From: Ignavibacteria bacterium
GTDB taxonomy: Bacteria; Bacteroidota; Ignavibacteria; Ignavibacteriales; Melioribacteraceae
Length of the DNA: 64,000 bases
Reading direction: 5' to 3'
Assembly (NCBI GenBank): GCA_016873835.1
Contig: VGVY01000002.1
Span: forward strand, 1-64,000
Position numbers and translations under genes: made by a program. Below are positions 49,138 to 64,000 of the stretch, piece after piece (positions within the stretch are counted from its first letter, which is position 1; the number at the start of each line of letters is the position of its first letter). Under the pieces are notes generated by a model that searched no databases, had not been told where the DNA came from, and saw only the letters and a list, made by a program, of their open reading frames with translations.

Positions 49138-52100
49138 ATGACAAACAATGTAAAAATAGGTGTTTATATCTGTCATTGTGGTGTTAACATTTCTCAAACT
49201 GTACGAGTTGATGAAGTTGCCAATTTGCTAAGCGGAAAACAAAATGTTAAGGTTTCTAAATCTTACAAGTTTATGTGTTCAGATCCAGGTCAGCAGATTG
49301 TTGAAACCGATATTAAAGAACATGGATTGAATAGAGTAGTTGTTGCTGCATGTTCTCCTTTAATGCATGAGCTAACATTCCGCAATGCATGCGAACGAGC
49401 CGGATTAAATCGCTATCTTTTTCAAATGGCAAATATTAGAGAGCATTGTGCTTGGGTGCATGACGATATTGATAAAGCAACAATAAAAGCGACAGCACTT
49501 GTTAATGCTGCGGTTAAAAGAGTAACACATCAAGAACCGCTCACCCCGATGAAATCTAAAATTAATCCAAATACACTTATTATCGGTGCTGGAATTGCTG
49601 GAATTCAAGCAGCTCTAGAAATTGCTGAATCTGGAAACAAAGTTTATCTCGTTGAAAAAGAATCAACAATTGGCGGACAGATGGCAAAGTTTGATAAAAC
49701 TTTTCCAACACTCGATTGCTCTGCATGTATTTTAACTCCCAAAATGGTTTCTGTTAGTCACCGCAAACAAATTGAGTTATTAACATTATCCGATGTTGAA
49801 GATGTAAGCGGTTATATTGGAAATTTTAAAGTAAAAGTCCGTAATAAAGCAAGGTATGTTACAGATAAATGCACTTCATGCGGAGAATGCACAAAACATT
49901 GTCCGGTTCATGTTCCAAATTGGTTTGATGAATTCACCCAGAATCGAACTGCAATTCATAAAGCGTTTCCCCAAGCTGTTCCTAATACATATATAATAGA
50001 TAGACAACAAAGACCGCCATGTATTGAAGCTTGCCCTATAAGGCAAGAAGCGGCCGGATATGTTGCATTAATTCGGGAAAAAAGATTTCACGAAGCAGCT
50101 CAGCTTATTCATAAAAGAAATCCTCTTGCAGTTGTTTGCGGAAGGGTTTGTTACCATCCTTGCGAAAGTGAATGTAATCGAGGTCATGTTGATAAACCAT
50201 TAGCAATTCAGCAATTGAAAAGATTTGCAATCGATTGGGAAATGAATAATAATGGAAAGTTTGAATCCCCCGTAATTGATAAGCATCGTCCGGAAAAAGT
50301 TGCTGTTATTGGTTCTGGTCCATCTGGATTAACATGCGCACATGATTTATCTCTCAAAGGTTTTAAAGTAACAGTATATGAACAGCATTCAATTCCAGGT
50401 GGTATGCTTGCAATTGGAATTCCAGAATACAGATTACCAAAAAAACTTCTTGCAATGGAAATCAATTATTTCCGAGGAATGGGAATTCAATTTAAAACAA
50501 ACATGAAACTTGGAAGCGATTTTACTATTGATGATTTATATAAAGAAGGATTTAAAGTTGTTTACATTGCTATTGGTGCTCATGATAGTATAAAACTTGA
50601 AATTCCTAATGAACATGTAATAGGAATTTATTCTGGCGTTGAGTTTTTACGAAAAGTCAATATTGGTATTCTCATGGATCTAGGAAAACATGTCGCAGTA
50701 ATTGGCGGCGGGAACACAGCAATTGATGCAGCAAGAACCGCACTTAGACTTGGTGCTAAAAAAGTCACAATTCTTTATAGAAGAACAAAATTAGAAATGC
50801 CAGCTTCTCCGGAAGAGATTGAAGATGCAGAAGCTGAAGGAATTCATATTTCCTATTTAACTGCACCTACCGAAGTAATAAGTGAAAATGAAAGCTTGAG
50901 AGGTCTTAAATGTATTCGTATGACACTTGGTGAACCAGATTCTTCTGGAAGAAGACGTCCGATTCCAATTCCAAATAGTGAACATGAATTAGAATTTGAT
51001 TCTGTAATTGTTGCAGTTAGCCAGTCGCCTAATCTTATTGGTTTGAATGGAAAATCAAAACATAAATTCACTATTACTAAATGGAACACTCTGCATGTTA
51101 ATCCAGAAACACTTCAAACAAGCGAACCATCAATATTTGCTGGTGGTGATGTTGTTCTAGGACCATCAACCATAATCGCATCAATGGGTCAAGGAAGGCG
51201 GGCCGCCGAATCAATTGAAAAATATTTGAACAAAGAACCACTAGATAATTTTACTACTCATATGGTTCGTCCGGAAGTTTTACGCGGTGAATCTTTTAGA
51301 CCTCATAGTTATGCAAAAACTTATAAAGAAACAGAGAAGACTGAACGAGAAGCAGTTGGTAAATTAAATCCTTTAGCAAGAAAATATAATTTCGAAGAAG
51401 TTGAACTTGGTTTTACAGAGGAACAAGCAGTTAAAGAAGCATCGCGCTGTTTGAATTGCGGTGTCTGCGTTGAATGCCACGAATGTCAAAGAGTTTGTGA
51501 GCCTGGAGCCGTCAATTACGAAATGGAAGACAAAATAAAAGAGTTTGATGTTGGTCAAATAATAGTTGCTACTGGCTATGATGTTTTCGATGCGTCCAAA
51601 CTTATTCCATATGGTTATGGAAAACTTAAAAATATTTTAAGCTCGCTCGAGTTTGAAAGAATGTTATCATCAACCGGACCAACCGGTGGAAGAGTTCTTC
51701 TTGAAAACGGTAAGGAGCCAAGAGCAGTTGGGATAATTCATTGTGTCGGTTCGCGTGATTCTAATTTTAATAAATATTGTTCGAGAGTATGCTGCATGTA
51801 TGCAATGAAATTCTCTCATTTGGTTAAAGACAGAACAAGTGCAGAAGTTTATCAATTCTATATCGATATGCGTGCATACGGAAAAGGCTATGAAGAATTT
51901 TATTCAAGAATTCTTGCTGAAGGGGTGAACGTAATTAGAGGAAAAGTTGCAGAGATAGTCGAACAAAAAGCAAATGATGGAGATAAATTCTTAGCTATTA
52001 AATGCGAAGACACATTGATCGGCAAGTTTAGAGAAATTCCAGTTGATATGGTAATACTTTGCAATGCACTTCAGCCAAGCAAAACAACAGAAAAAGTTGC

Positions 52101-52539
52101 GAAGATTTTAAGTCTTTCAAGAAGTCCTGATGGATTCCTATTAGAACGTCATCCAAAACTTGATCCGTTCTCAACTGTCAGCGATGGTATTTATCTTGCG
52201 GGATGCGCACAAGGTCCAAAAGATATTCCAGATACTGTTTCTCAAGCAAGTGCTGCTGCTGCACGTGCATTGGCAATAATATCAAAAGGCGAGGTTGATA
52301 TTGATCCTATAAGAGCTGAAATAAATGAAAATTATTGTGCCGGCTGCAGAATGTGTAATAATTTATGTCCGTACAGCGCAATTGAATTTCTTGAGGATAA
52401 AAAAGTTTCAGTTGTTAATGATGCACTTTGCAAAGGATGCGGAACTTGTGTTGCTGCTTGTCCGGCTGGTGCAATAACAGGTAAAGGATTTTCTGATGAA
52501 CAAATCTATGCAGAGCTTGAAGGAATTTTAGAAGTGTAA
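49138..52539 (+). CDS. hdrA: HdrA-type flavoprotein with inserted GltD/NfnB-like NADP-binding module
   Basis: 1133 residues; canonical HdrA is about 650. Order: HdrA N-domain (VYICHCGVNI), FAD Rossmann (IIGAGIAGIQAAL, residue 146), TLDCSACILTPKM, a ferredoxin motif (CTSCGECTKHC, about 244). Then the insert, about 290-740: CIEACPIRQEAAGY, CGRVCYHPCESECNR, FAD GSGPSGLTCAHDL (about 388), NAD(P) GGGNTAIDAAR (about 517) with YRRTKLEMPA, and AGGDVVLGPSTI, all GltD/NfnB-like. HdrA sequence resumes with CLNCGVCVECHEC and CVGSRDSN, and ends in two clusters (CAGCRMCNNLC, CKGCGTCVAAC). The paired Arg after strand B2 suggests NADP(H). Expected to bifurcate hydrogen electrons with MvhADG. Confidence 0.93.
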   Translation: MTNNVKIGVYICHCGVNISQTVRVDEVANLLSGKQNVKVSKSYKFMCSDPGQQIVETDIKEHGLNRVVVAACSPLMHELTFRNACERAGLNRYLFQMANIREHCAWVHDDIDKATIKATALVNAAVKRVTHQEPLTPMKSKINPNTLIIGAGIAGIQAALEIAESGNKVYLVEKESTIGGQMAKFDKTFPTLDCSACILTPKMVSVSHRKQIELLTLSDVEDVSGYIGNFKVKVRNKARYVTDKCTSCGECTKHCPVHVPNWFDEFTQNRTAIHKAFPQAVPNTYIIDRQQRPPCIEACPIRQEAAGYVALIREKRFHEAAQLIHKRNPLAVVCGRVCYHPCESECNRGHVDKPLAIQQLKRFAIDWEMNNNGKFESPVIDKHRPEKVAVIGSGPSGLTCAHDLSLKGFKVTVYEQHSIPGGMLAIGIPEYRLPKKLLAMEINYFRGMGIQFKTNMKLGSDFTIDDLYKEGFKVVYIAIGAHDSIKLEIPNEHVIGIYSGVEFLRKVNIGILMDLGKHVAVIGGGNTAIDAARTALRLGAKKVTILYRRTKLEMPASPEEIEDAEAEGIHISYLTAPTEVISENESLRGLKCIRMTLGEPDSSGRRRPIPIPNSEHELEFDSVIVAVSQSPNLIGLNGKSKHKFTITKWNTLHVNPETLQTSEPSIFAGGDVVLGPSTIIASMGQGRRAAESIEKYLNKEPLDNFTTHMVRPEVLRGESFRPHSYAKTYKETEKTEREAVGKLNPLARKYNFEEVELGFTEEQAVKEASRCLNCGVCVECHECQRVCEPGAVNYEMEDKIKEFDVGQIIVATGYDVFDASKLIPYGYGKLKNILSSLEFERMLSSTGPTGGRVLLENGKEPRAVGIIHCVGSRDSNFNKYCSRVCCMYAMKFSHLVKDRTSAEVYQFYIDMRAYGKGYEEFYSRILAEGVNVIRGKVAEIVEQKANDGDKFLAIKCEDTLIGKFREIPVDMVILCNALQPSKTTEKVAKILSLSRSPDGFLLERHPKLDPFSTVSDGIYLAGCAQGPKDIPDTVSQASAAAARALAIISKGEVDIDPIRAEINENYCAGCRMCNNLCPYSAIEFLEDKKVSVVNDALCKGCGTCVAACPAGAITGKGFSDEQIYAELEGILEV

Positions 52540-52557
52540 AATTATTTTGAGATAAAA

Positions 52558-53013
52558 ATGGAAACCAAACAAACATTAAAAAAAGAGATTAATCTTAAAG
52601 ATGGCGTATTTGAACCAAAGATAGTTGGATTTTTGTGCAATTGGTGTTCATACTCCGGAGCTGATTTAGCTGGTGTTTCAAGGATAAAATCGGCGCCAAA
52701 TGTTAGAATAATTCGGACAATGTGTTCGGGCAGAGTTGATCCATCATTTATAATAAAAGCATTTGAGCTTGGCGCAGATGGTGTTTTGATTGCCGGATGC
52801 CACTTTGGAGATTGTCATTATCTTGAAGGAAATTTTAAAACTATGCGCCGAATAGAAATGATGAAACTTGTACTAAAGCAATTTGGAATTGATGCAAGAA
52901 GATTACGACTTGAATGGATCTCTGCATCTGAAGCAGAAAAATTTTCTAAAGTAACTTTTGAATTTACTGAACAAATAAAAACTCTTGGTCCACTTAGATT
53001 AATAAAGAATTAA
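52558..53013 (+). CDS. mvhD: MvhD-type [2Fe-2S] electron-transfer subunit
   Basis: A 151-residue protein that links the hydrogenase to HdrA. Cys ligands: FLCNWCSYSGADLAG, RTMCSGRVDP, AGCHFGDCHYLEGN. Length and motif order match MvhD/FrhD-like subunits. It lies between hdrA and mvhG, 18 bp after hdrA. Confidence 0.94.
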   Translation: METKQTLKKEINLKDGVFEPKIVGFLCNWCSYSGADLAGVSRIKSAPNVRIIRTMCSGRVDPSFIIKAFELGADGVLIAGCHFGDCHYLEGNFKTMRRIEMMKLVLKQFGIDARRLRLEWISASEAEKFSKVTFEFTEQIKTLGPLRLIKN

Positions 53014-53029
53014 ATGCCGGAGTAATAAA

Positions 53030-54016
53030 ATGGGCAAACCAAAATTAGCACTTTATTGGGCAGCAAGCTGCGGCGGCTGTGAAATTACTGTTGTTGATAT
53101 TGAAGAAAAGATACTTGATGTTGCAGATTTTTTTGACATTGTATTCTGGCCTTGCATTATGGATTTTAAATATGAAGATGTTGAAGCAATGGAAGATGGA
53201 GAAATTGACATTACACTTTTCAATGGTGCAATCCGAACTTCAGAAAATGAACATCTTGCTAAATTGCTTAGAAAAAAATCGAAATTATTAATTGCATTTG
53301 GTTCTTGTGCTCACGATGGCTGTATTCCCGGTCTTGCAAATTTTTATGATAAGCAAAGTATCTTCGATTACGTATATAAAGAGTCTCCTTCGGTTGAGGA
53401 GAGTTCTCAAGGAGTTTTTCCACAGACATCAACTAAAATGCCTGAAGGCGAAATAACTATTCCGGAATTTTGGAATACTGTTAAAACTCTCGATCAAACT
53501 GTTGATGTTGATTATTACATTCCCGGGTGTCCACCGCAATCTTTTCAAGTAGCTGCAGTAATACTCGCAGTTATTGATATTTTGAAAACTGGTAAACCAC
53601 TTCCTGACAAGGGTGCTATACTTGGTGCCGATAATAAAACTTGTTGTGATGAGTGCCCACGTGAAAGAAAAGAAAAAAAGATTAAAGAATTTTTCAGACC
53701 ACATGAAATAATTCCCAAAGAAGATGAATGTCTTCTTGATCAAGGAATACTTTGCATAGGTCCGGCAACCAGAAGCGGTTGCGGTGCGCTTTGTGTTCAG
53801 GCTAATGTTCCGTGCAGAGGTTGTTATGGTGTTCCTCCAAATGTAAAGGATCAAGGTGCAAAAATGATTTCCGCATTAAGTTCTGTTATCGATGCAACTT
53901 CGCCGGAGGAAGTTTCGAGAATAATAAATAAAATTGCTGATCCGCTCGGAACATTTTATAGATTCTCACTTGCAAGTTCAACATTTAAACGAGTTCAGTT
54001 TTCGGATAAGACATAA
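53030..54016 (+). CDS. mvhG: Group 3 [NiFe] hydrogenase small subunit (MvhG-like)
   Basis: A 328-residue small subunit without a Tat signal, so cytoplasmic. Proximal cluster motif WAASCGGCEITVVD, then FGSCAHDGCIPGL and YIPGCPPQSFQV. The C-terminal half binds further clusters (CCDECPRERK, CIGPATRSGCGALC, CRGCYGVP). Matches MvhG and bacterial group 3c proteins. Confidence 0.94.
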   Translation: MGKPKLALYWAASCGGCEITVVDIEEKILDVADFFDIVFWPCIMDFKYEDVEAMEDGEIDITLFNGAIRTSENEHLAKLLRKKSKLLIAFGSCAHDGCIPGLANFYDKQSIFDYVYKESPSVEESSQGVFPQTSTKMPEGEITIPEFWNTVKTLDQTVDVDYYIPGCPPQSFQVAAVILAVIDILKTGKPLPDKGAILGADNKTCCDECPRERKEKKIKEFFRPHEIIPKEDECLLDQGILCIGPATRSGCGALCVQANVPCRGCYGVPPNVKDQGAKMISALSSVIDATSPEEVSRIINKIADPLGTFYRFSLASSTFKRVQFSDKT

Positions 54017-54046
54017 ATACATTTTCAATTATAATGGAACTTAACA

Positions 54047-55525
54047 ATGAAGCATATAAAAATTGACCCTATTACCCGCTTAGAAGGACACGGCAAGATT
54101 GATATATTTTTAAATGACGAAGGTGATGTTGAAAATTGCTACTTCGTTATACCTGAATTGAGAGGGTTTGAGAAGTTTGCGCAAGGTAGACCAGTTGAGG
54201 AGATGCCAAGAATAACAACAAGAATTTGCGGTGTTTGTCCGGAAGCACATCACATGGCATCTGCAAAAGCTTGCGATGCAGTTTATCATGTTAATATTCC
54301 TTCAGCAGCAAAAAAATTAAGGGAACTCCTTTATACAATTTTTTACACCGCAGATCATACAGTTCATTTTTATGCTTTAGGCGGACCTGATTTTGTTGTT
54401 GGACCTGATGCACCAAAGGCTGAAAGAAATATTCTTGGATTGATCAACAAAGTTGGTTTAGAGGCCGGTAAAAAAGTTATTAAGTTGAGATCGCTTGCAC
54501 AAAATATGATTCAAACTTTGGGAGGAAAAAAAATTCATCAAGTAACTTCACTTCCTGGTGGTGTTTCAAGAGGAATATCGGAAGAAGAGAGAGTTGCCTT
54601 TGCAAAAGATCTTGAGTACTTCGTAGAGTTTGGTAAGTTCACATTCCAAGTATTCAATGATATAGTTTTGAAAAATTCTGGTTACGTAGATTTGATTTTA
54701 TCTGACACGTTTACTCAAAAAACATATTATATGGGGACGGTCGATGAAAATAATAAAACAAATTTTTATGATGGAAAAGTAAGAGTTGTTGATCCCGAGG
54801 GAAATGAGCATTGTAAATATGAGCCAAAAGATTATCTAAATTTTATTTCTGAGCACACAGAAAAATGGAATTATCTAAAATATCCATATCTTAAAAAAAT
54901 TGGCTGGAAAGGATTTGTTGATGGAATTGAGAGCGGAGTTTATCAAGCCACACCGCTGTCAAGAGTAAATGCCTCGGATGGAATGGCAACTCCATTAGCA
55001 CAAGAAGAATATGAAAAATTTTATGAAACATTTACTGGAGATCGTTCCGGTAAAAAGCCAGTTCATCATACACTTGCCACACACTGGGCAAGAGTAATTG
55101 AATTAATGTATGCTGCGGAAAGAGCAAATGAATTAATAAACGATCCCGAAATAACTTCTAAAGATATTCGTACTATACCAACCGAAATTCCAACAGAAGG
55201 AGTTGGAATTGTTGAAGCCCCTCGCGGAACTTTAACTCATCATTATATTACAGACGAAAAAGGAATTGTAAAAAAAGCAAACCTAATAGTTGGAACAACA
55301 AATAATCATGCGCCAATTTCAATGTCTATTAAGAAAGCTGCACAAGGTTTAATAAAAAGGGGGACAGAAGTAACAGATGCAACCCTCAATATGATTGAAA
55401 TGGCATTCCGTGCATACGACCCATGTTTTGGATGTGCAACACATACTTTGCCAGGTCAAATGCCATTACAAATAAAAATTTATAACAAGGAAGGATTACT
55501 ACTTTCCGAGAATTCAAGGTTCTAA
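54047..55525 (+). CDS. mvhA: Group 3 [NiFe] hydrogenase large subunit (MvhA-like)
   Basis: A 492-residue catalytic subunit. It begins IDPITRLEGHGKI. Nickel ligands: TRICGVCPEAHHMAS and DPCFGCATH; cleavage after that His would release a 21-residue tail beginning TLPGQMP. The partner protease is probably the one at 46468. Last gene of the sigma-54 operon, convergent with the 55566 gene. Confidence 0.95.
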   Translation: MKHIKIDPITRLEGHGKIDIFLNDEGDVENCYFVIPELRGFEKFAQGRPVEEMPRITTRICGVCPEAHHMASAKACDAVYHVNIPSAAKKLRELLYTIFYTADHTVHFYALGGPDFVVGPDAPKAERNILGLINKVGLEAGKKVIKLRSLAQNMIQTLGGKKIHQVTSLPGGVSRGISEEERVAFAKDLEYFVEFGKFTFQVFNDIVLKNSGYVDLILSDTFTQKTYYMGTVDENNKTNFYDGKVRVVDPEGNEHCKYEPKDYLNFISEHTEKWNYLKYPYLKKIGWKGFVDGIESGVYQATPLSRVNASDGMATPLAQEEYEKFYETFTGDRSGKKPVHHTLATHWARVIELMYAAERANELINDPEITSKDIRTIPTEIPTEGVGIVEAPRGTLTHHYITDEKGIVKKANLIVGTTNNHAPISMSIKKAAQGLIKRGTEVTDATLNMIEMAFRAYDPCFGCATHTLPGQMPLQIKIYNKEGLLLSENSRF

Positions 55526-55565: not shown

Positions 55566-58500
55566 TTAGGGCCAAATTCCATTCAATAGAAAATATAAAA
55601 TCATAAAAGCATCATAAGCTTGAATTGTTCCATCTTGATTTGTGTCTGCAGCATACTGTTGACGGGTTGTAAGGTTTATTAATCCCACTGTATTTCTTAA
55701 TACCAATGCGGCATCAATTCCATTTACTTCACCATTTTCATTAACATCACCTCTTGCAACTCCAATAATATTAAAGAAATTTTCGCTAGCATCATTTGTA
55801 AAATTATCTAAATCGCTAATCCGAATTTTTGCTTGTGTGGAATTTAAATTTGGAATTAACCAGTTGTAAATTCCTGAACTTGCTTGAGTTGCATTAGAAA
55901 TTATATTCCAGGTATTTCCATCGTTTGTTGTGTATTCTATTCTTGTACTAGTTATGTTTTCACTAGTCCAAGTTATAGAATTTGGAATTCCAGTAAGCCA
56001 TGCCTCGCCGCCATTTGGAGAAGTTAAATTTAAGATTGGAATTGGACCAATTGTAAAAACTCCATTACTAATATCATTTAATGAAGAATTAATTAAATCA
56101 CTTATTTTCACTATTGCTTGAGTTGTTGGAATGTTTGGAATCATCCAATCGAACTTTTCAGTGGATGCTTGGGTTGATTGTGACAAAACTTGCCAACTTG
56201 AGCCACTATTTGTTGAAAACTCAATTTTTATATTTTGGATGCCAACACTTGTCCATTTTATTTCTTGTGAAGAAGACCGCTGCCAAATTTCTCCGCCGTT
56301 TGGTTGAGTTAGTGTTAAGCTTGGAATTGGACTAATTGTAAAAGTATTATTGCTTAAATCATTTACGCTGGAATCTGAAGTATCACTTATTCTCACTTTG
56401 GCTTGTGTTGTAAGAGAATTAGGAAGAGTCCAATCATATTTACCAGCAGACGCTGGTAAGGAATTGATAATACTTATCCATGTTTGACCGTTATTAGTGG
56501 AGTACTCAATTTTTATGGTTGCCACATTAACGCTTATCCATTTTATTTCTTGCAGCGAACCTTCTTGCCAAATCTCACCACCATTTGGTTGGGATAGTGT
56601 CAAAGTCGGAATCAATTCAAAATTTACGGTAAGAGTTCTATTCGATAAAATTGTGAATGAATAATTTGAATTTGTTGATACTACATTTTGTCCCTCAGTC
56701 CAATTTACAAATCTATAACCATTGTTTGAAGTGGCAGTTAAATTGACTTGTGTTCCTTGAGAAAAAGAACCGCATCCAGAAGTTGTACCTCCTTGAATTG
56801 GGGATGATAAACAATTAATTGTAAATATTTGAGGTATAGTTGTGAATGACCAAATTTGTGACCAGTCACTTGTTCCATTTACAGCATTAGTTGCGTTTAC
56901 TCTCCAGTAATAAGTTGAGTTATTAACAAGTCCGCTTAATTGATATTGGTTATTTACTAGATTATTAACATCGTAAATAGTGGAAGAAAAGTTTTGGTTT
57001 TGAGAAACTTGCAGTCTGTAATTTACATTCGTTCCAACTACTTTATTCCAGAAAAGCAGTGGGGAAAGCGAAATATTTGATGCAGCATTTTGAGGCGCAC
57101 TTAGTAATGGTGCAGAAAGCGAAACGCTGCCAATACCATAAATCCATTTTATACCGTCAACTTCAATACTAGTTAAATTTCTTTTTAATACACCGGAACT
57201 GCTGAATCCATACATAATTTTATAAGAATCAGAACCTCCATAAATATCCCGTAAATTTAACCAATGCCCAAATTCATGAAGTGCTATTGATTGAACATCA
57301 TAATGAGAACCATCTTTACTCCAATAAAATGAATCATTAAAAACCATATCAACTTCTACAATAGCGTTGCCAACATACCAATAATAAGTTGTAGCCAAAG
57401 AACCAGATGTAGAACCCCACATAATTTCATTTATGTTATCAAACGTTGCATCAGTTAAATTAGTAATTCCATTGTAATAGAATCCAAACTGAGCACCAGC
57501 ACTAGACCAACTACTGGCGGCTGCAATTATTTCATCTCCTTCACCAATTAAATCAGTTGTGTTTTCATTGATTCTTATTGGTATTCTTGCTGGATTAGTA
57601 TTCCATTTAACATCACCGTAACTGAAAGTCACATTAAAATTATAACCAACACTTGTTCCAGTGCTTGTAGTTACTGAAACTGGTCCGCTTGAAGCGGAAG
57701 CTGGATAACCATCAATTATATCTATAGGAACAACACATTGAATGCTCGTATTAGACCATGCCACGTAATTTGTTGATTCTATTTTTGGCTGACCATAACG
57801 ATAAAAAAATTCTACTTTGCTTGTTCCTCTTGTAACACCAAAATTATTTCCAGTAATTGTTATAGTAGAATTAGTTCCAGCAGAATTAGTTGAAGGAGAA
57901 ATGTTGGTTATAGTGGGTAACCCGGAAACAGCTTCAATTGAAATATTTTTTGTGTATTCATTGTCAGTTTCGTTTAATTCAGAAATTAAATTTGTCGGAT
58001 CAGCTACTATTTTGATTGAGTGGTTTCCATTTGATAATGGTTCGATTTGATAATCTGAAACATAAACATAATAACCAGCCGATAGACCACTTGCAGTCCA
58101 CTGTGCATATAATACATTATCAACATATAAATTGATATAAAATGTACTTGTTACATCTTCTATACCGAAATTAGCTAATGCCCAATCAACATATATTTTT
58201 TCAGTTTCCTTGATTGCCGCTGCGTCAGTATTTGTTCCAGTTACTATTGATGTAACAATTTCCGCAGACCAGCCAACCGGTTTATAAGGAGCTAAATTTG
58301 CATTGGATAGTGTAGAAGAAATTTTTTGTAAGTGACTACTTTTTATTTCAAGCTGCTCAATTTTTTTCGTGTTTAGCTCAAATGAGTCAATTCTTTTCTG
58401 TAATTCAATAGAATCTTCCGGAAGTGAAATATTTTCATTTATTGTTTTTTTTAGAAAAGAAATAAAGAGATCTGCTTTAAGATACTTTCCATTAAAAAAA

Positions 58501-58895
58501 ATTCTGTTGTCATGAATATTAAATTTATCAATTGCCTTGAGTTCATTATTACCATTAGAATTATCAAGCAGCAGAATCAATTCCTGATTGTTTCTTACTG
58601 AAAATGAAGTAGATACAAATTCGGTAGTATCATTCACTGTTCCGCCGATAATTTCAAGGTTTATACTTTTGGCATTAATAAATCCCTTTAATATATCTAA
58701 TACCTCAAACTCTATAGAGGTATAGATGTGTTTTCCTTTTTCATTAATGATCCATCGTGAGTCCTGACTGATTACTTTTGAGTGTAATATTAAATCAGAT
58801 TCTTCGATAGAAGAAGAAATTGATTTTTCGAAATGATGCTGACTTAAAACAACATTAAATGAAACAAGAAGAATGAATAATAAATATTTGTACAT
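55566..58895 (-). CDS. Large secreted metallopeptidase-like protein with Ig-type repeats and C-terminal dockerin
   Basis: 1109 residues with a signal peptide (YKYLLFILLVSFNVVLSQ). Order: N-domain (about 20-190), CARDB-like (WALANFGIEDV), IPT/TIG (LPTITNISPSTNSAGTNS), a metzincin-like site HEFGHWLNLRD near residue 537 (zinc ligands His, His and possibly Asp), FN3 (WNKVVGTNVNYRLQVSQNQ), a GYRFVNWTEG module, three Ig-like repeats with PNGGEIW (about 765-1045), and a dockerin-like end: RGDVNENGEVNGIDAALVLRN and ADTNQDGTIQAYDAFMIL. The usual T9SS tail is absent. The met-turn after the site (KIMYGF) supports a peptidase. Confidence 0.85.
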   Translation of the reverse strand: MYKYLLFILLVSFNVVLSQHHFEKSISSSIEESDLILHSKVISQDSRWIINEKGKHIYTSIEFEVLDILKGFINAKSINLEIIGGTVNDTTEFVSTSFSVRNNQELILLLDNSNGNNELKAIDKFNIHDNRIFFNGKYLKADLFISFLKKTINENISLPEDSIELQKRIDSFELNTKKIEQLEIKSSHLQKISSTLSNANLAPYKPVGWSAEIVTSIVTGTNTDAAAIKETEKIYVDWALANFGIEDVTSTFYINLYVDNVLYAQWTASGLSAGYYVYVSDYQIEPLSNGNHSIKIVADPTNLISELNETDNEYTKNISIEAVSGLPTITNISPSTNSAGTNSTITITGNNFGVTRGTSKVEFFYRYGQPKIESTNYVAWSNTSIQCVVPIDIIDGYPASASSGPVSVTTSTGTSVGYNFNVTFSYGDVKWNTNPARIPIRINENTTDLIGEGDEIIAAASSWSSAGAQFGFYYNGITNLTDATFDNINEIMWGSTSGSLATTYYWYVGNAIVEVDMVFNDSFYWSKDGSHYDVQSIALHEFGHWLNLRDIYGGSDSYKIMYGFSSSGVLKRNLTSIEVDGIKWIYGIGSVSLSAPLLSAPQNAASNISLSPLLFWNKVVGTNVNYRLQVSQNQNFSSTIYDVNNLVNNQYQLSGLVNNSTYYWRVNATNAVNGTSDWSQIWSFTTIPQIFTINCLSSPIQGGTTSGCGSFSQGTQVNLTATSNNGYRFVNWTEGQNVVSTNSNYSFTILSNRTLTVNFELIPTLTLSQPNGGEIWQEGSLQEIKWISVNVATIKIEYSTNNGQTWISIINSLPASAGKYDWTLPNSLTTQAKVRISDTSDSSVNDLSNNTFTISPIPSLTLTQPNGGEIWQRSSSQEIKWTSVGIQNIKIEFSTNSGSSWQVLSQSTQASTEKFDWMIPNIPTTQAIVKISDLINSSLNDISNGVFTIGPIPILNLTSPNGGEAWLTGIPNSITWTSENITSTRIEYTTNDGNTWNIISNATQASSGIYNWLIPNLNSTQAKIRISDLDNFTNDASENFFNIIGVARGDVNENGEVNGIDAALVLRNTVGLINLTTRQQYAADTNQDGTIQAYDAFMILYFLLNGIWP
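55760..56604 (-). repeat. Three tandem Ig-like repeats inside the metallopeptidase gene
   Basis: Each unit is about 95 codons and begins with LxLxxPNGGExW, continues IxWxSxxxxxIxIExSxNxG, and ends with WxxPNxxTTQAxVxISD. Copies start near residues 765, 862 and 958. The copies are diverged rather than identical, so recent amplification is unlikely. Confidence 0.8.
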
Positions 58896-59024: not shown

Positions 59025-60881
59025 TCAAATCAATTTTTTAATTATCAGATATTCTTTCAAAACTTTTATAAAGTTGTAAATATCTTCCGTAAATAATTCT
59101 CCCATGTTTGCAATTCTAAAAGTATTTACTTTTGCTCCTTTGCCGGGATAAATAGTAAAACCTCTATCATAAAGAAAATCGTGCATTTCATTGAAGTCAT
59201 AGTTTTGATTTTCTGGTTCAATTACAGCTGTTAATATTTTTGCATGGTGCTGCTCATCGACTAAAAATTTAAATCCTAATTCTCGAAGCCCTTTTTTAAG
59301 TACTTCATACATTTCAAAATATCTCTTTGATCTTCCTTCCCCAGTCTCTAAAAAATATTCGTTTATTGCCTGGCGAAGTGCATAAAATATTTGAACTGGC
59401 GGAGTGAATTGCATCTGTTTTTGCTTTGTAAAAAATGTAAAGTTGTCAAACAGATTGAAATAAAAATTTCTTCTTGAATATAGGGCAGTTTTATTTAATG
59501 AGTCGCGGTCACAAATCACAAAACTTATTCCAGCCATTCCTTGAATACACTTATTTGCCGATGCAATTAAATATTGTACTTTATATTTAGTTACATCAAT
59601 TGGTATTCCAGCGTATGAAGACATTGCATCAACAATTATCTCAAGGTTGTACTCTTCAGCCATTTTTGAAATTTCGTCCAAAGGATTTAAAATACCAACG
59701 GTTGTTTCATGATGAACAAAAGCAATTTGCGAAAGTTTGTTTTTGTTTTTTTCTACTATTGATCTTAACTGTAATAAATTAATCGGATCGCCAAACGAGA
59801 CATCAAATTTGATTTGGTTTATATTAAACCCTTCGCAGATCTGCTGCATCCGTTTTCCATAAGCTCCGTTATTTATAATTAGCACATACTTATTTTCTGG
59901 AATTACAGAAGTAAGACAAGCTTCAACAGCACCAGTACCAGAACTGGCAAACAGCACTGCTTCATGGGTATCTTCACCATGAACAACTTTTACTAAATCT
60001 TTTCTAATTCCTTCTACCAAATCGCCAAATTCTTTTTCTCTTGGACAAATATCTTCCACCACTAATGCTTTTTTAACAGCATCACTTGTTGTTGCCGGAC
60101 CGGGATTAAGCAAAATATTTCTTTCAACTTTTTTAGAGAATTGAATTTCACTATCTCGTTTAATTATTAACGGATTGATTACTTCGACAGCTCGTTTATA
60201 ATGTTGTTCGTCGTCAATTTCTATCCATGCCAAGTCCTCAATTACTTTATAATTTATTTCATTACTTGCAGCAAGATCAGTTAAACAATCTTCGTAGTGA
60301 TAATTTTTATTTTTTTCGAATTGAAGCTCAGAATGGGCAAACATTTTCTGATAAAGCTCAAATGAGATTTTAGAAATTCCAACAAGCTCTCCACCGAGAT
60401 TTTTTATTTCGGAAATATTTTTAGACATATTAACAATTTTGTTTTTCTCAACTCCAACATAAACTTCATCGCCGGCAGCAGTTTTCCCGGAAAGGAGGAT
60501 TAAATTTTTTTCCTTGGAATTCATTATTACTTGTAATGCATTCAATTCATAATTTAGATCAGATTCCAACAAAATAAAATCTTTCTCAATTAATTCATTT
60601 GCTTTCCATAAAGAATACATGCTTCCAGTTGATTCATAAAAATCATTGTTGATTGTTTTTACAAAAGGATACTTTTTTGTCAAGCTTTCATAAAATTCTC
60701 TCTTATAACCGGTTACAATTATAATGTTCTGTATGCCGGAATAAATTAAGCGTGAAATCGATTCTTCAATTATTGGTTTTTCATTTAGTGATAAAAATCC
60801 TTTTGGTTTGTCATTATGGATTGATCGTAAGCGCGATCCAATGCCAGCTGCAAGTATTACAGCATTTTTCACTCTACTCAT
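59025..60881 (-). CDS. phnW: Nucleotidyltransferase fused to 2-aminoethylphosphonate:pyruvate transaminase
   Basis: 618 residues, two domains. Residues 1-245 form an NTP transferase: NAVILAAGIGSRLRSIHNDKPKGFLSL (nucleotide loop), FYESTGSMYSL, LLESDLNYE. Residues 250-618 form the class V transaminase: NILLNPGPATTSDAVK, FASSGTGAVEACL, VHHETTVGILNP, VDAMSSYAGIP, and SANKCIQGMAG with the PLP Lys near residue 440. It makes aminoethylphosphonate from phosphonoacetaldehyde; the fused cytidylyltransferase-type domain can activate the product. Overlaps ppd by 4 bp. Confidence 0.92.
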   Translation of the reverse strand: MSRVKNAVILAAGIGSRLRSIHNDKPKGFLSLNEKPIIEESISRLIYSGIQNIIIVTGYKREFYESLTKKYPFVKTINNDFYESTGSMYSLWKANELIEKDFILLESDLNYELNALQVIMNSKEKNLILLSGKTAAGDEVYVGVEKNKIVNMSKNISEIKNLGGELVGISKISFELYQKMFAHSELQFEKNKNYHYEDCLTDLAASNEINYKVIEDLAWIEIDDEQHYKRAVEVINPLIIKRDSEIQFSKKVERNILLNPGPATTSDAVKKALVVEDICPREKEFGDLVEGIRKDLVKVVHGEDTHEAVLFASSGTGAVEACLTSVIPENKYVLIINNGAYGKRMQQICEGFNINQIKFDVSFGDPINLLQLRSIVEKNKNKLSQIAFVHHETTVGILNPLDEISKMAEEYNLEIIVDAMSSYAGIPIDVTKYKVQYLIASANKCIQGMAGISFVICDRDSLNKTALYSRRNFYFNLFDNFTFFTKQKQMQFTPPVQIFYALRQAINEYFLETGEGRSKRYFEMYEVLKKGLRELGFKFLVDEQHHAKILTAVIEPENQNYDFNEMHDFLYDRGFTIYPGKGAKVNTFRIANMGELFTEDIYNFIKVLKEYLIIKKLI

Positions 60882-62050
60882 TTACTTAACTTACTGTTTA
60901 GTTGGATAAATTTTTGTAATCTTTCCTTTACTTGATACGGCTTAATGCCGGGTCTGCCTAAAGTTTTTGGAGATCCTTTTTTGATTTTAAGATGAATAAA
61001 TGTTGGACCGTTTTGAAAAATATCCGAAGTAATAAATTTAATAAACATATTGAGTGAGTCTGTAGACATTGAGTTATTATAATTAAATCCTTTTGCAACA
61101 GCAGCAAAGGAAACATTATTAGATACTGTGTATTGTCCGCCGGTTGAATCATGACATTCATTATCAAGGAGGATATGAATTAAGTTATTCGGTTTATAAG
61201 CGCCTACAGTTGCCATAGAGCCAGTTCTCATTAAAAGAGCGCCGTCGCCGTCAAGCACATAAACTTTTAAATCTGGTTTTGAATATGCAATCCCGAGTCC
61301 AAATGCTAAGGCACATCCCATTGAGCCCACCATATAAAGTTGATTTTCTTTATCATTCAATTCAAATAATTCTCTTCCGGTTTTTCCGGTCGTTGCTATT
61401 AGAATTGATTTCTTATCAACAGCCCCCTGAATAATTTTCAATACATCAGTTCTAGTTGGTCTTTCGGAATAAGGAAGGGAAAAATTATCATTATGTACGA
61501 TATCAACATGAATAGGTTTTTCAGTTCTTACCGATTGTAATTCGTATTCCGCCACGTCACCTTTTTTCATAATAAAAACATAAGGCTTATTATTTTCAAT
61601 CATATAATCACTGGCTCTTTTTATAGACTCTTTTATTAAGTTACTTTCATTTGGGAAAAATGACCATTTCAATTGCATTGCGTCAAGAAGATCTGTTAAT
61701 ACTTGTCCCATTAATTTGTGCTGTGGTTCGTCTGGAGGTCCGCCTGGTTCTCCTCTTAATGTAACAATAATTAATAAAGGAATTTGGAAAGTATCTGTTA
61801 ATGAAGTCAAAGGATTAACTGCATTACCAAGACCAGAGTTTTGAAACATAACAACGCTTCTTCCTCCGGCAACAGTTACACCAGCTGCGAGTGCAATTGC
61901 ATCCCCTTCATTTACTGCATCTATAAATTTAAATTCATCGTGATCAATTACATAATTAATAAATGGTTTGAGATATGAACATGGAGTTCCAGTAAAAAAA
62001 TTGAATCCATATGTTAGACATTCATCTAAGAATTCTTTTGCAAAGATCAT
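60878..62050 (-). CDS. ppd: Phosphonopyruvate decarboxylase
   Basis: A 390-residue ThDP enzyme that drives phosphonate synthesis by removing CO2 from phosphonopyruvate. Motifs: FFTGTPCSYLKPFINYV, VNEGDAIALAAG (ThDP-activating Glu), QNSGLGNAVNPL, RGEPGGPPDEPQH, and the ThDP loop GDGALLMRTG (near residue 266) with LLDNECHDSTGGQ. Length is normal for AepY/Ppd. Coupled by a 4-bp overlap with the transaminase gene downstream. Confidence 0.95.
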   Translation of the reverse strand: MIFAKEFLDECLTYGFNFFTGTPCSYLKPFINYVIDHDEFKFIDAVNEGDAIALAAGVTVAGGRSVVMFQNSGLGNAVNPLTSLTDTFQIPLLIIVTLRGEPGGPPDEPQHKLMGQVLTDLLDAMQLKWSFFPNESNLIKESIKRASDYMIENNKPYVFIMKKGDVAEYELQSVRTEKPIHVDIVHNDNFSLPYSERPTRTDVLKIIQGAVDKKSILIATTGKTGRELFELNDKENQLYMVGSMGCALAFGLGIAYSKPDLKVYVLDGDGALLMRTGSMATVGAYKPNNLIHILLDNECHDSTGGQYTVSNNVSFAAVAKGFNYNNSMSTDSLNMFIKFITSDIFQNGPTFIHLKIKKGSPKTLGRPGIKPYQVKERLQKFIQLNSKLSK

Positions 62051-62080
62051 TTGTTATTTCCAGCATTTGTATAATAAATA

Positions 62081-63697
62081 TTATTGATATGCCAATACAT
62101 TGCTTAGATCAGATACATTGTCAACATCAAGCCAGTTACCATCTATAAAAATTACTTTTATCTGCACCCCTTTTCCAATCAGAGTATTTAGTAAGTCGGG
62201 CATTTTCAACTTGTTAAAATTTTCTTTACGTGACATTTCATCTAAAGTGATTCTTAAAATATCAGAACCAGATGGATTGGTTTTTAATAATCCAATCCAC
62301 TCGCCGTCAAACTGGTCGGAGTTTTTAAGTTCTGTGAAACTAATTCTTTTTAAGAATACTGGCTCTTCAGAAAATTTCTTTGAATAAGGTTTAGTGCAAT
62401 TAACAAAGTCACCATGATTGCCGCAGCATCTTCTTTCTAAATTTGCATCAATTACAGTTACAATATCTCCATCTTCTTCAAGCAACAATGATAAAATAAA
62501 TTTTCTGTATAGAATATCGCCATAAGTTATAATACACTCATCTTGAATTTTTTCATTTGCTTTGAATAAAGAAACAAGCTCTCCGGTTGTTGCGTAATCA
62601 TCATTATCAAAATATTTTACATTTGGGAAATTAAATGCTTCTTTTTTATATCCACGAACAATTGCAAGATCTTTAATTCCTCTTTCATTAAAAAGTTCTA
62701 TCATTTTTGCGACTAATGGTTTTCCATTGACATTAATCATTGCTTTCGGAACATCTTTGGTTAAATCACCTAATTCAACACCGCGAGAAGCAGCGAGAAT
62801 AATACCGCTAACAAGTCGCTTCTCTTGGGTTTTTAAGTATAGATTTTCTGCTTGCTGAAGTTCTTCATCATTCTGAAGCCTAAATATTTCATTCAAGGTT
62901 GCTACCTTGTCTTCAACTTCTATTAAGGATTGTGATTTGTAAATAGTTTCAGCAGTTTTTTTCATTGCTGTAATTGCACTGCGTAATTGATGATTTGCCC
63001 AGATAATTAAGCTTATACCGGCATCCCGAAATACTTGTGTTGGGGTTGAATAATATTTTGTTGGAACAATAACCACCGGACATCTATTTCCCCATTCTTT
63101 CATAAAAGTTAAAATTTCATCTGGCTTTGAAATTTTACTGTGCATAAGTATTGCATCTGCTCCAGCTAAACGATACGCTTCGGCTCGTTTTAATGCTTCT
63201 GAAAGCCCCCATCCAGCAATTAAAGCTTCAACGCGTGCAACGATACAAAAGTCAGAATCAACCTGACAATCTTTTCCAGCTTTAATTTTACCGGCAAATT
63301 CTTCAATCTCTGCAAGTGGCTGCTTTTCTCCGCGGATAAAACTATTTGTTTTGGGAAAAAGTTTATCCTCGATGCAAACACCAGAAATATTTCTTTGCTC
63401 AAGTTTTTTTACAAGCCGGCGCATATTATTAAAATTTCCATATCCAGTATCACCGTCAAGCAAAATAGGAATTGTTGTGGCATCACTCATAAATTCAACT
63501 ACTTCTACAATTTGAGTCCAACTTGCTTCGTTATTATCACGCACACCAAGCGATGCACTTATTGAAAGTCCGCTACCCCAAATTCCTTTAAAACCGGCTT
63601 CCTCAGCTATTTTTGCAGATAAACCATTATGTGCTTCCATAATAAATTCAAGCTCAGGACTGGTTAATAATTTTTTCAATTGAGTAGTTTTTTTCAT
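62081..63697 (-). CDS. pepM: Phosphoenolpyruvate mutase fused to nucleotidyltransferase
   Basis: 538 residues. Residues 1-285 are PEP mutase: [29 protein letters not shown], and [10 protein letters not shown] (about 109-118), the signature that separates PEP mutase from isocitrate lyase-like relatives. It forms the C-P bond. Residues 290-538 are a second NTP transferase: [52 protein letters not shown]. This fused arrangement is known from PntC-type cytidylyltransferases. First complete gene of the operon after the edge gene; 30 bp before ppd. Confidence 0.95.
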
Positions 63698-63741: not shown

Positions 63742-64000
63742 TTATGTTTTTGTGGGAACTGCTTCAAAAAGCTTAATTGTGTTTCTATCAATGTTCTTTT
63801 GGAAAAATAATAATAGAAGAGTCCATACAGTTCCAAACAAAAGAGTGTACCAAATAAAAATATCGAACCTATTAAAAAAAGCTAAAATAATAAGAACAAA
63901 TGCGTGAGTAGATGTTCCGTTCAAATTCCATAACCGAATAATAATTTTATTAGCCTTAATATATTCGTTTGGAGAAATTAATTTAGTTTCCAACGCGCGT
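63742..64000 (-). CDS. C-terminal part of a membrane protein, possibly CDP-alcohol phosphatidyltransferase
   Basis: About 86 codons of the 3' end are visible; the frame is open to the window edge. Two hydrophobic segments (FVLIILAFFNRFDIFIWYTL and LLFGTVWTLLLLFF) follow RLWNLNGTSTHA and precede a basic, soluble tail ending AVPTKT. It is 44 bp upstream of pepM. In phosphonate operons of this type a CDP-alcohol phosphatidyltransferase is often found, and the segment spacing would fit, but the diagnostic DG-x2-AR motif is outside the window. Confidence 0.5.
   Translation of the reverse strand, partial: RALETKLISPNEYIKANKIIIRLWNLNGTSTHAFVLIILAFFNRFDIFIWYTLLFGTVWTLLLLFFQKNIDRNTIKLFEAVPTKT

Follow-up and report, generated by a model that had tools for sequence, protein, structure and literature searches.

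Why should a short phosphonate operon carry a nucleotidyltransferase (NTase) domain on both its first and its last pathway enzyme, and do the two domains serve the same purpose? The question is raised by a stretch of 64,000 nucleotides from an Ignavibacteria bacterium (the window; contig VGVY01000002.1 of assembly GCA_016873835.1), whose minus strand encodes a phosphoenolpyruvate (PEP) mutase, PepM, fused to an NTase-fold domain that we call pNT (538 aa, 62081-63697), a phosphonopyruvate decarboxylase, Ppd (390 aa, 60878-62050), and an NTase domain fused to an aminoethylphosphonate (AEP) transaminase, AEPT (618 aa, 59025-60881). Open reading frames (ORFs), Pfam and NCBIfam confirm the original prediction that NTase domains of about 245 residues sit on both PepM and AEPT, and also that the two differ in sequence, with about 34% identity across some 115 residues and little likeness elsewhere. 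Judged by its sequence, pNT is an old PepM-specific clade of NTase domains that has kept the nucleotide- and metal-binding core (Lys318, Asp394), while the Arg that binds pyrophosphate and the residues in contact with AEP have been lost. We favour the reading that it serves as a nucleotide-binding accessory or sensor domain, in feedback or as a scaffold, over that of a second active NTase, and assign the former a probability of roughly one half.

For the AEPT-fused domain, the answer is comparatively clear. Residues 1-245 of the 618-aa protein (60147-60881, minus strand) are very probably a PntC, that is, a predicted AEP cytidylyltransferase, so that the expectation of a PntC-type domain in this operon held by sequence. 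The protein aligns end to end with Tde1415 (6PD1), the PntC-AEPT of T. denticola (E=1e-158), carries the GxG(T/S)R(x)4-8PK signature (GIGSRLRSIHNDKPK, with R17 and K27) and retains the AEP contacts E106, E197 and K154 together with the metal ligands D108, E221 and D223. Tde1415 makes CMP-AEP; its alanine mutants at Arg15, Lys25 or Lys153 have less than 10% activity, and Glu104 and Glu196 are positioned for contact with the AEP amine (Rice et al. 2019, PMC6697681). As the window protein matches Tde1415 over its full length, with all catalytic and AEP-contact residues kept, it should likewise make CMP-AEP.

pNT comprises residues 295-538 of the PepM fusion (62084-62815, minus strand), where NTP_transf_3 and NTP_transferase score above the Pfam gathering cutoffs and LicC (1JYK) is matched. 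An AlphaFold2 model of the domain alone reaches a pLDDT of 93 and a pTM of 0.90, and Foldseek ranks PntC (6PD2, TM 0.76) and LicC (1JYL, TM 0.72) first, indicating that the NTase fold is intact. To describe the active site, we compared 81 pNTs, 80 of them from PepM-NTase loci found in a scan of GTDB species genomes and one being the window's own; the set spans many phyla but is biased, as Cupriavidus and Nostocales are heavily represented and the search patterns included the fused domain. In the alignment, the signature Arg (Arg15 column of PntC) is absent from 80 of the 81, a single member having Arg there, and the loop in place of GxG(T/S)R mostly reads LAA(S/T)RGxxL...LTxDxPK. In the window, this altered signature occupies residues 304-318 (62744-62788, minus strand), with Glu308 at the Arg15 position and Lys318 kept. 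The Lys25 column (K318) and the Asp106 column (Asp394, a metal-ligand position; 62516-62518, minus strand) are invariant (81/81), while the other two metal carboxylates never occur in the canonical ExD form (0/81): the Glu220 column holds D, G or N but never E, the Asp222 column N in 50 and D in 31 (GxN in 14/81), and both C-terminal carboxylates are gone in 17 members. The C-terminal metal motif of the window copy is WLDVD (residues 522-526; 62120-62134, minus strand), compared with WxExD in companion NTases. By contrast, the companion NTases of the same loci show R-K-D-E-D in 61 of 61 cases. The AEP-contact positions Glu104, Glu196 and Lys153 correspond to Y392, P500 and F454 in the window pNT, the stretch 454-500 being loosely aligned. 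A domain lacking catalytic residues, which the original prediction had listed as evidence against itself, is thus partly what pNT presents: the Arg is lost and the second-site carboxylates are altered, but the Lys and the metal Asp are kept.

A separate observation concerns the Cupriavidus-type pNTs (L033, L038, L046, L052, L056, L059-L061, L067-L069 and L073), in which WRGVN replaces WxExD; these sites are among the most altered of the family and are still under purifying selection.

The phylogenetic position of pNT is equally distinct. In a maximum-likelihood tree of 69 rows, rooted at its midpoint for drawing purposes only, the pNTs form a single clade (support 100/99) that groups with same-phylum single-domain NTases and with the NTase-like N-terminal domain of PPDK-type proteins of about 1040 aa, and a 100/99 branch separates them from the PntC-type companions, including Tde-PntC. 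The domain phylogeny that had been proposed as a check therefore sets pNT beside Cj1416-like proteins and apart from Tde-PntC. In its single-domain relatives the GxGTR-type loop is intact, and their genes lie beside those for GATase and PPDK-type proteins. Matches in 396 same-phylum genomes included no pNT that both stands alone and has the altered motif; the single-domain candidates among them proved to be canonical enzymes of the Cj1416-like kind or others. The PPDK-type proteins themselves (L095:8402-11527, L097:8419-11526 and L100:9868-13011), also from same-phylum genomes, join an NTase-like domain without the GxGxR loop to PPDK_N and PEP-utilising domains; with genes for a class I GATase and for a canonical NTase adjoining, they would represent a Cj1416-Cj1418-like cluster whose kinase bears an altered NTase domain of its own.

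A search of 399 Pseudomonadota genomes with the PepM domain only yielded 17 PepMs, 12 fused and 5 stand-alone. The fused ones are at least 64% identical to the window PepM and the stand-alone ones 49-58%, so that the fusion seems to mark one PepM clade; all 12 have the altered loop. pNT is under purifying selection, even in Cupriavidus, where its C-terminal metal motif has become WRGVN with the loss of two metal carboxylates: the median ratios of nonsynonymous to synonymous substitution rates (dN/dS) are 0.26 for pNT, 0.11 for PepM and 0.18 for the companion NTase in Cupriavidus-type loci, and 0.098 for pNT and 0.108 for the companion in Nostocales. In one locus (L057:7944-9611), a stop within the PepM domain splits the PepM-pNT frame into two ORFs.

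In 62 of the 81 loci, PepM-pNT has a second, canonical NTase no more than 6 kb away, and in six (L002, which is the window, L003, L026, L035, L039 and L055) this companion is fused to AEPT; a CDP-alcohol phosphotransferase is found within the same distance in 34. Across these clusters pNT stays alike, while the companion NTase varies. A Magnetococcales cluster (L080:5146-9555) that retains pNT encodes a Ppd-like protein and, in place of the canonical second NTase, a cytidylyltransferase that Pfam assigns to PF01467, together with an Fe-ADH; the latter two suggest hydroxyethylphosphonate as the product, and the cluster is likely a pathway of this type. A regular-expression search for PF01467 cytidylyltransferases across the loci gave no match, but since Pfam detected the one in L080, this negative carries no weight.

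How, then, is pNT best understood? Several observations weigh against an accessory or sensor role. The invariance of Lys318 and Asp394, together with the DxD metal motif retained in the window copy, means that catalysis by pNT is still possible; R15A Tde-PntC retains some activity, albeit less than 10% (PMC6697681), and R305, at a motif position where 65 of the 81 pNTs have Arg (position 2), might substitute for the lost signature Arg. In the AlphaFold2 model of full-length PepM-pNT (pTM 0.58), the relative placement of the domains is uncertain. Moreover, 18 loci have no detected second NTase on the stretch examined, several of these being short contigs, and when 11 genomes of such loci, many of them drafts, were searched whole, 3 gave a strong match to the PntC model and 8 did not, which leaves room for pNT being active; Pfam found no theme in common among the neighbours of pNT in these loci. 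In the first rival reading, pNT is an active nucleotidyltransferase for a different acceptor, be it another phosphonate or a phosphate such as phosphoglycerate, inositol phosphate or an amino-acid phosphate, providing a second activated building block. This reading is possible but, in our view, less likely than the accessory one. The invariant Lys and Asp core, the intact fold and the genomes in which PntC went undetected speak for it, as does the fact that the nearest canonical relatives are Cj1416-like, the Campylobacter member being a promiscuous cytidylyltransferase. However, it has to accommodate the nearly universal loss of the signature Arg (80/81) and a metal motif eroded to the point of losing both C-terminal carboxylates in 17 of 81 members, as well as a pNT that stays constant despite the differing companions and products of the clusters, and the window operon is without an extra sugar or alcohol phosphate pathway. 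Nothing points in particular to the choline-like or sugar phosphate that had been suggested as a second substrate.

In the plain reading of Rice et al., pNT would be a second, redundant phosphonate (AEP) cytidylyltransferase, in keeping with its membership in the same Pfam families as PntC and with their counting of Ppm-PF12804 fusions as likely phosphonate NTases (PMC6697681). We consider this improbable, as neither the AEP contacts Glu104, Glu196 and Lys153 nor the signature Arg are retained, pNT forms a separate clade, and a canonical PntC is already present in the operon; residue and tree tests alike make it unlikely that both domains share one substrate, the outcome that the original prediction had named as counting against itself. 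A functionless pNT, carried along on PepM and decaying, would agree with the loss of active-site residues and with its faster evolution relative to PepM, but a dN/dS of 0.098-0.26, residues that are invariant across phyla and the fact that pNT was never frameshifted away within the clade sampled render this highly implausible. Of the options originally offered, different substrates or one activating and one regulatory domain, both remain serious, and it is the latter that finds support here, short of proof. Extended to the whole clade, the sensor reading is more tentative: instead of activating a substrate, pNT may serve throughout as a conserved scaffold or as a sensor of CTP or the CMP-phosphonate product, and so set pathway entry whichever phosphonate is made. 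The NTase-like domain on PPDK-type (Cj1418-like) kinases of neighbouring lineages offers a parallel. PF12804 on PEP mutases is naturally taken as a further phosphonate-activating cytidylyltransferase, whereas our comparison finds pNT and true PntC to differ, and the double-fused operon holds both domain types in one small system. If this difference holds, many "bifunctional PEP mutase/nucleotidyltransferase" annotations are misread, and C-P bond formation may have an unrecognised control point. In the open-access literature searched, we found neither a report of systematic signature-Arg loss in the PepM-fused class nor a biochemical test of the ppm-fused PF12804 domain.

Taken together with the established chemistry of the families, the enzyme identities assigned by sequence describe a four-gene phosphonyl-tailoring operon on the minus strand. 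The PEP mutase domain (residues 1-289 of 538, 62831-63697; PF13714, E=2.2e-59; TIGR02320, 400.6 bits against a cutoff of 319.6; mollusc PEP mutase 1M1B, E=1.5e-137), in which the EDKxxxxxNS motif is present, would convert PEP to phosphonopyruvate, and Ppd (TIGR03297, 406 bits against 312.5) would decarboxylate it. The AEP transaminase domain (residues 252-618, 59028-60128; TIGR03301 at residues 256-611, 405.6 against 360.8 bits) would aminate phosphonoacetaldehyde to AEP, which the PntC domain (NTP_transferase at residues 7-127) would couple to CMP. The original prediction had the first three genes right but omitted a fourth at the window edge: the next same-strand gene upstream of pepM, 44 bp away and the first of the operon, encodes a CDP-alcohol phosphotransferase (PF01066, E=2.5e-17) with a complete D(x)2DG(x)2AR(x)8G(x)3D(x)3D signature. 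Its 3' part occupies 63742-64000, and the whole gene (G000:C2:63742-64629 = L002:5743-6630) straddles the window edge, past which the contig (C2, 105 kb) continues. From its place in the operon, this membrane enzyme probably transfers the AEP-phosphonyl group to an acceptor of the lipid type, with a lipid or polyol alcohol as the conceivable recipient, although the substrate of its closest named families is CDP-diacylglycerol or CDP-inositol and not CMP-AEP. The end product would be of the phosphonolipid type, with AEP attached at the cell surface, and pNT, by binding nucleotide or the CMP-phosphonate product, may tune or organise the first committed step.

ppd and pntC-aept overlap by 4 bp, and 30 bp separate ppd from pepM. 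An artefact of frames or gene boundaries can be dismissed because the frames are open and a related Ignavibacteria locus (L003, 83% identity) carries the same four genes in identical order, the phosphotransferase included. Among 57 close-relative genomes, PntC-AEPT was matched in the organism's own genome only, indicating a patchy distribution of the operon. The flanking genes seem unrelated: a gene that by eye looks SRAP-like lies upstream and, downstream, a secreted dockerin-type protein of 1109 aa (55566-58895, minus strand) that combines CARDB, TIG, an InlB-B-repeat and a C-terminal dockerin type I with a zinc-protease-like HEFGH motif. Farther away (49138-55525, plus strand), the gene for a 1133-aa HdrA-like protein is followed by MvhD-like and hydrogenase small- and large-subunit genes. 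A Fer4_20/Pyr_redox_2 module of the glutamate-synthase type is inserted in the HdrA-like protein at about residues 290-690, so that the products would form a soluble complex of the hydrogenase/HdrA type in which HdrA itself houses an NAD(P)H-type module.

The arrangement as such is not new, and two NTases in one pathway are less unusual than had been assumed. Rice et al. (2019, PMC6697681) described clusters in which a ppm-fused NTase lies one or two genes from another NTase, including that of T. denticola with its PntC-AEPT, and reported that about one third of PEP mutases bear a PF12804 domain and that 42 triple fusions join Ppm to both NTase families; a novel architecture is thereby rejected, the double-fused arrangement and the PntC chemistry both being published, and the same set-up recurs in five further loci (L003, L026, L035, L039 and L055). 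Like the window operon, the pnt cluster of T. denticola is an AEP cluster with both a PntC-AEPT fusion and a nucleotidyltransferase fused to ppm, and the catalytic and AEP-contact residues of Tde1415 (6PD1/6PD2) are identical to those of the window PntC; it belongs, however, to a different phylum. The window operon opens with a CDP-alcohol phosphotransferase; the sequence comparison between the two covers PntC-AEPT. The CTP:phosphocholine cytidylyltransferase LicC (1JYK/1JYL) shares the fold of pNT and is its best sequence match in the PDB, but pNT has neither GxG(T/S)R nor the residues of the acceptor pocket. In the tree, the sister group to pNT consists of phosphoglutamine cytidylyltransferases of the Cj1416 type, whose genes adjoin those for a GATase and a PPDK-like kinase, the label being taken from gene content (the Campylobacter Cj1416-Cj1418 phosphoramidate set-up), with C. 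jejuni Cj1416 itself outside the tree; these same-phylum proteins are stand-alone with an intact GxGTR, whereas pNT forms part of PepM and has an altered signature. Fom1 of the fosfomycin pathway is also a PepM-NTase fusion, but its cytidylyltransferase is a PF01467 domain of unrelated fold at the N-terminus, while pNT is C-terminal. By analogy only, pNT recalls GMPPA, the large subunit of ADP-glucose pyrophosphorylase and eIF2B gamma and epsilon, in which NTase folds with altered sites act as sensors or partners.

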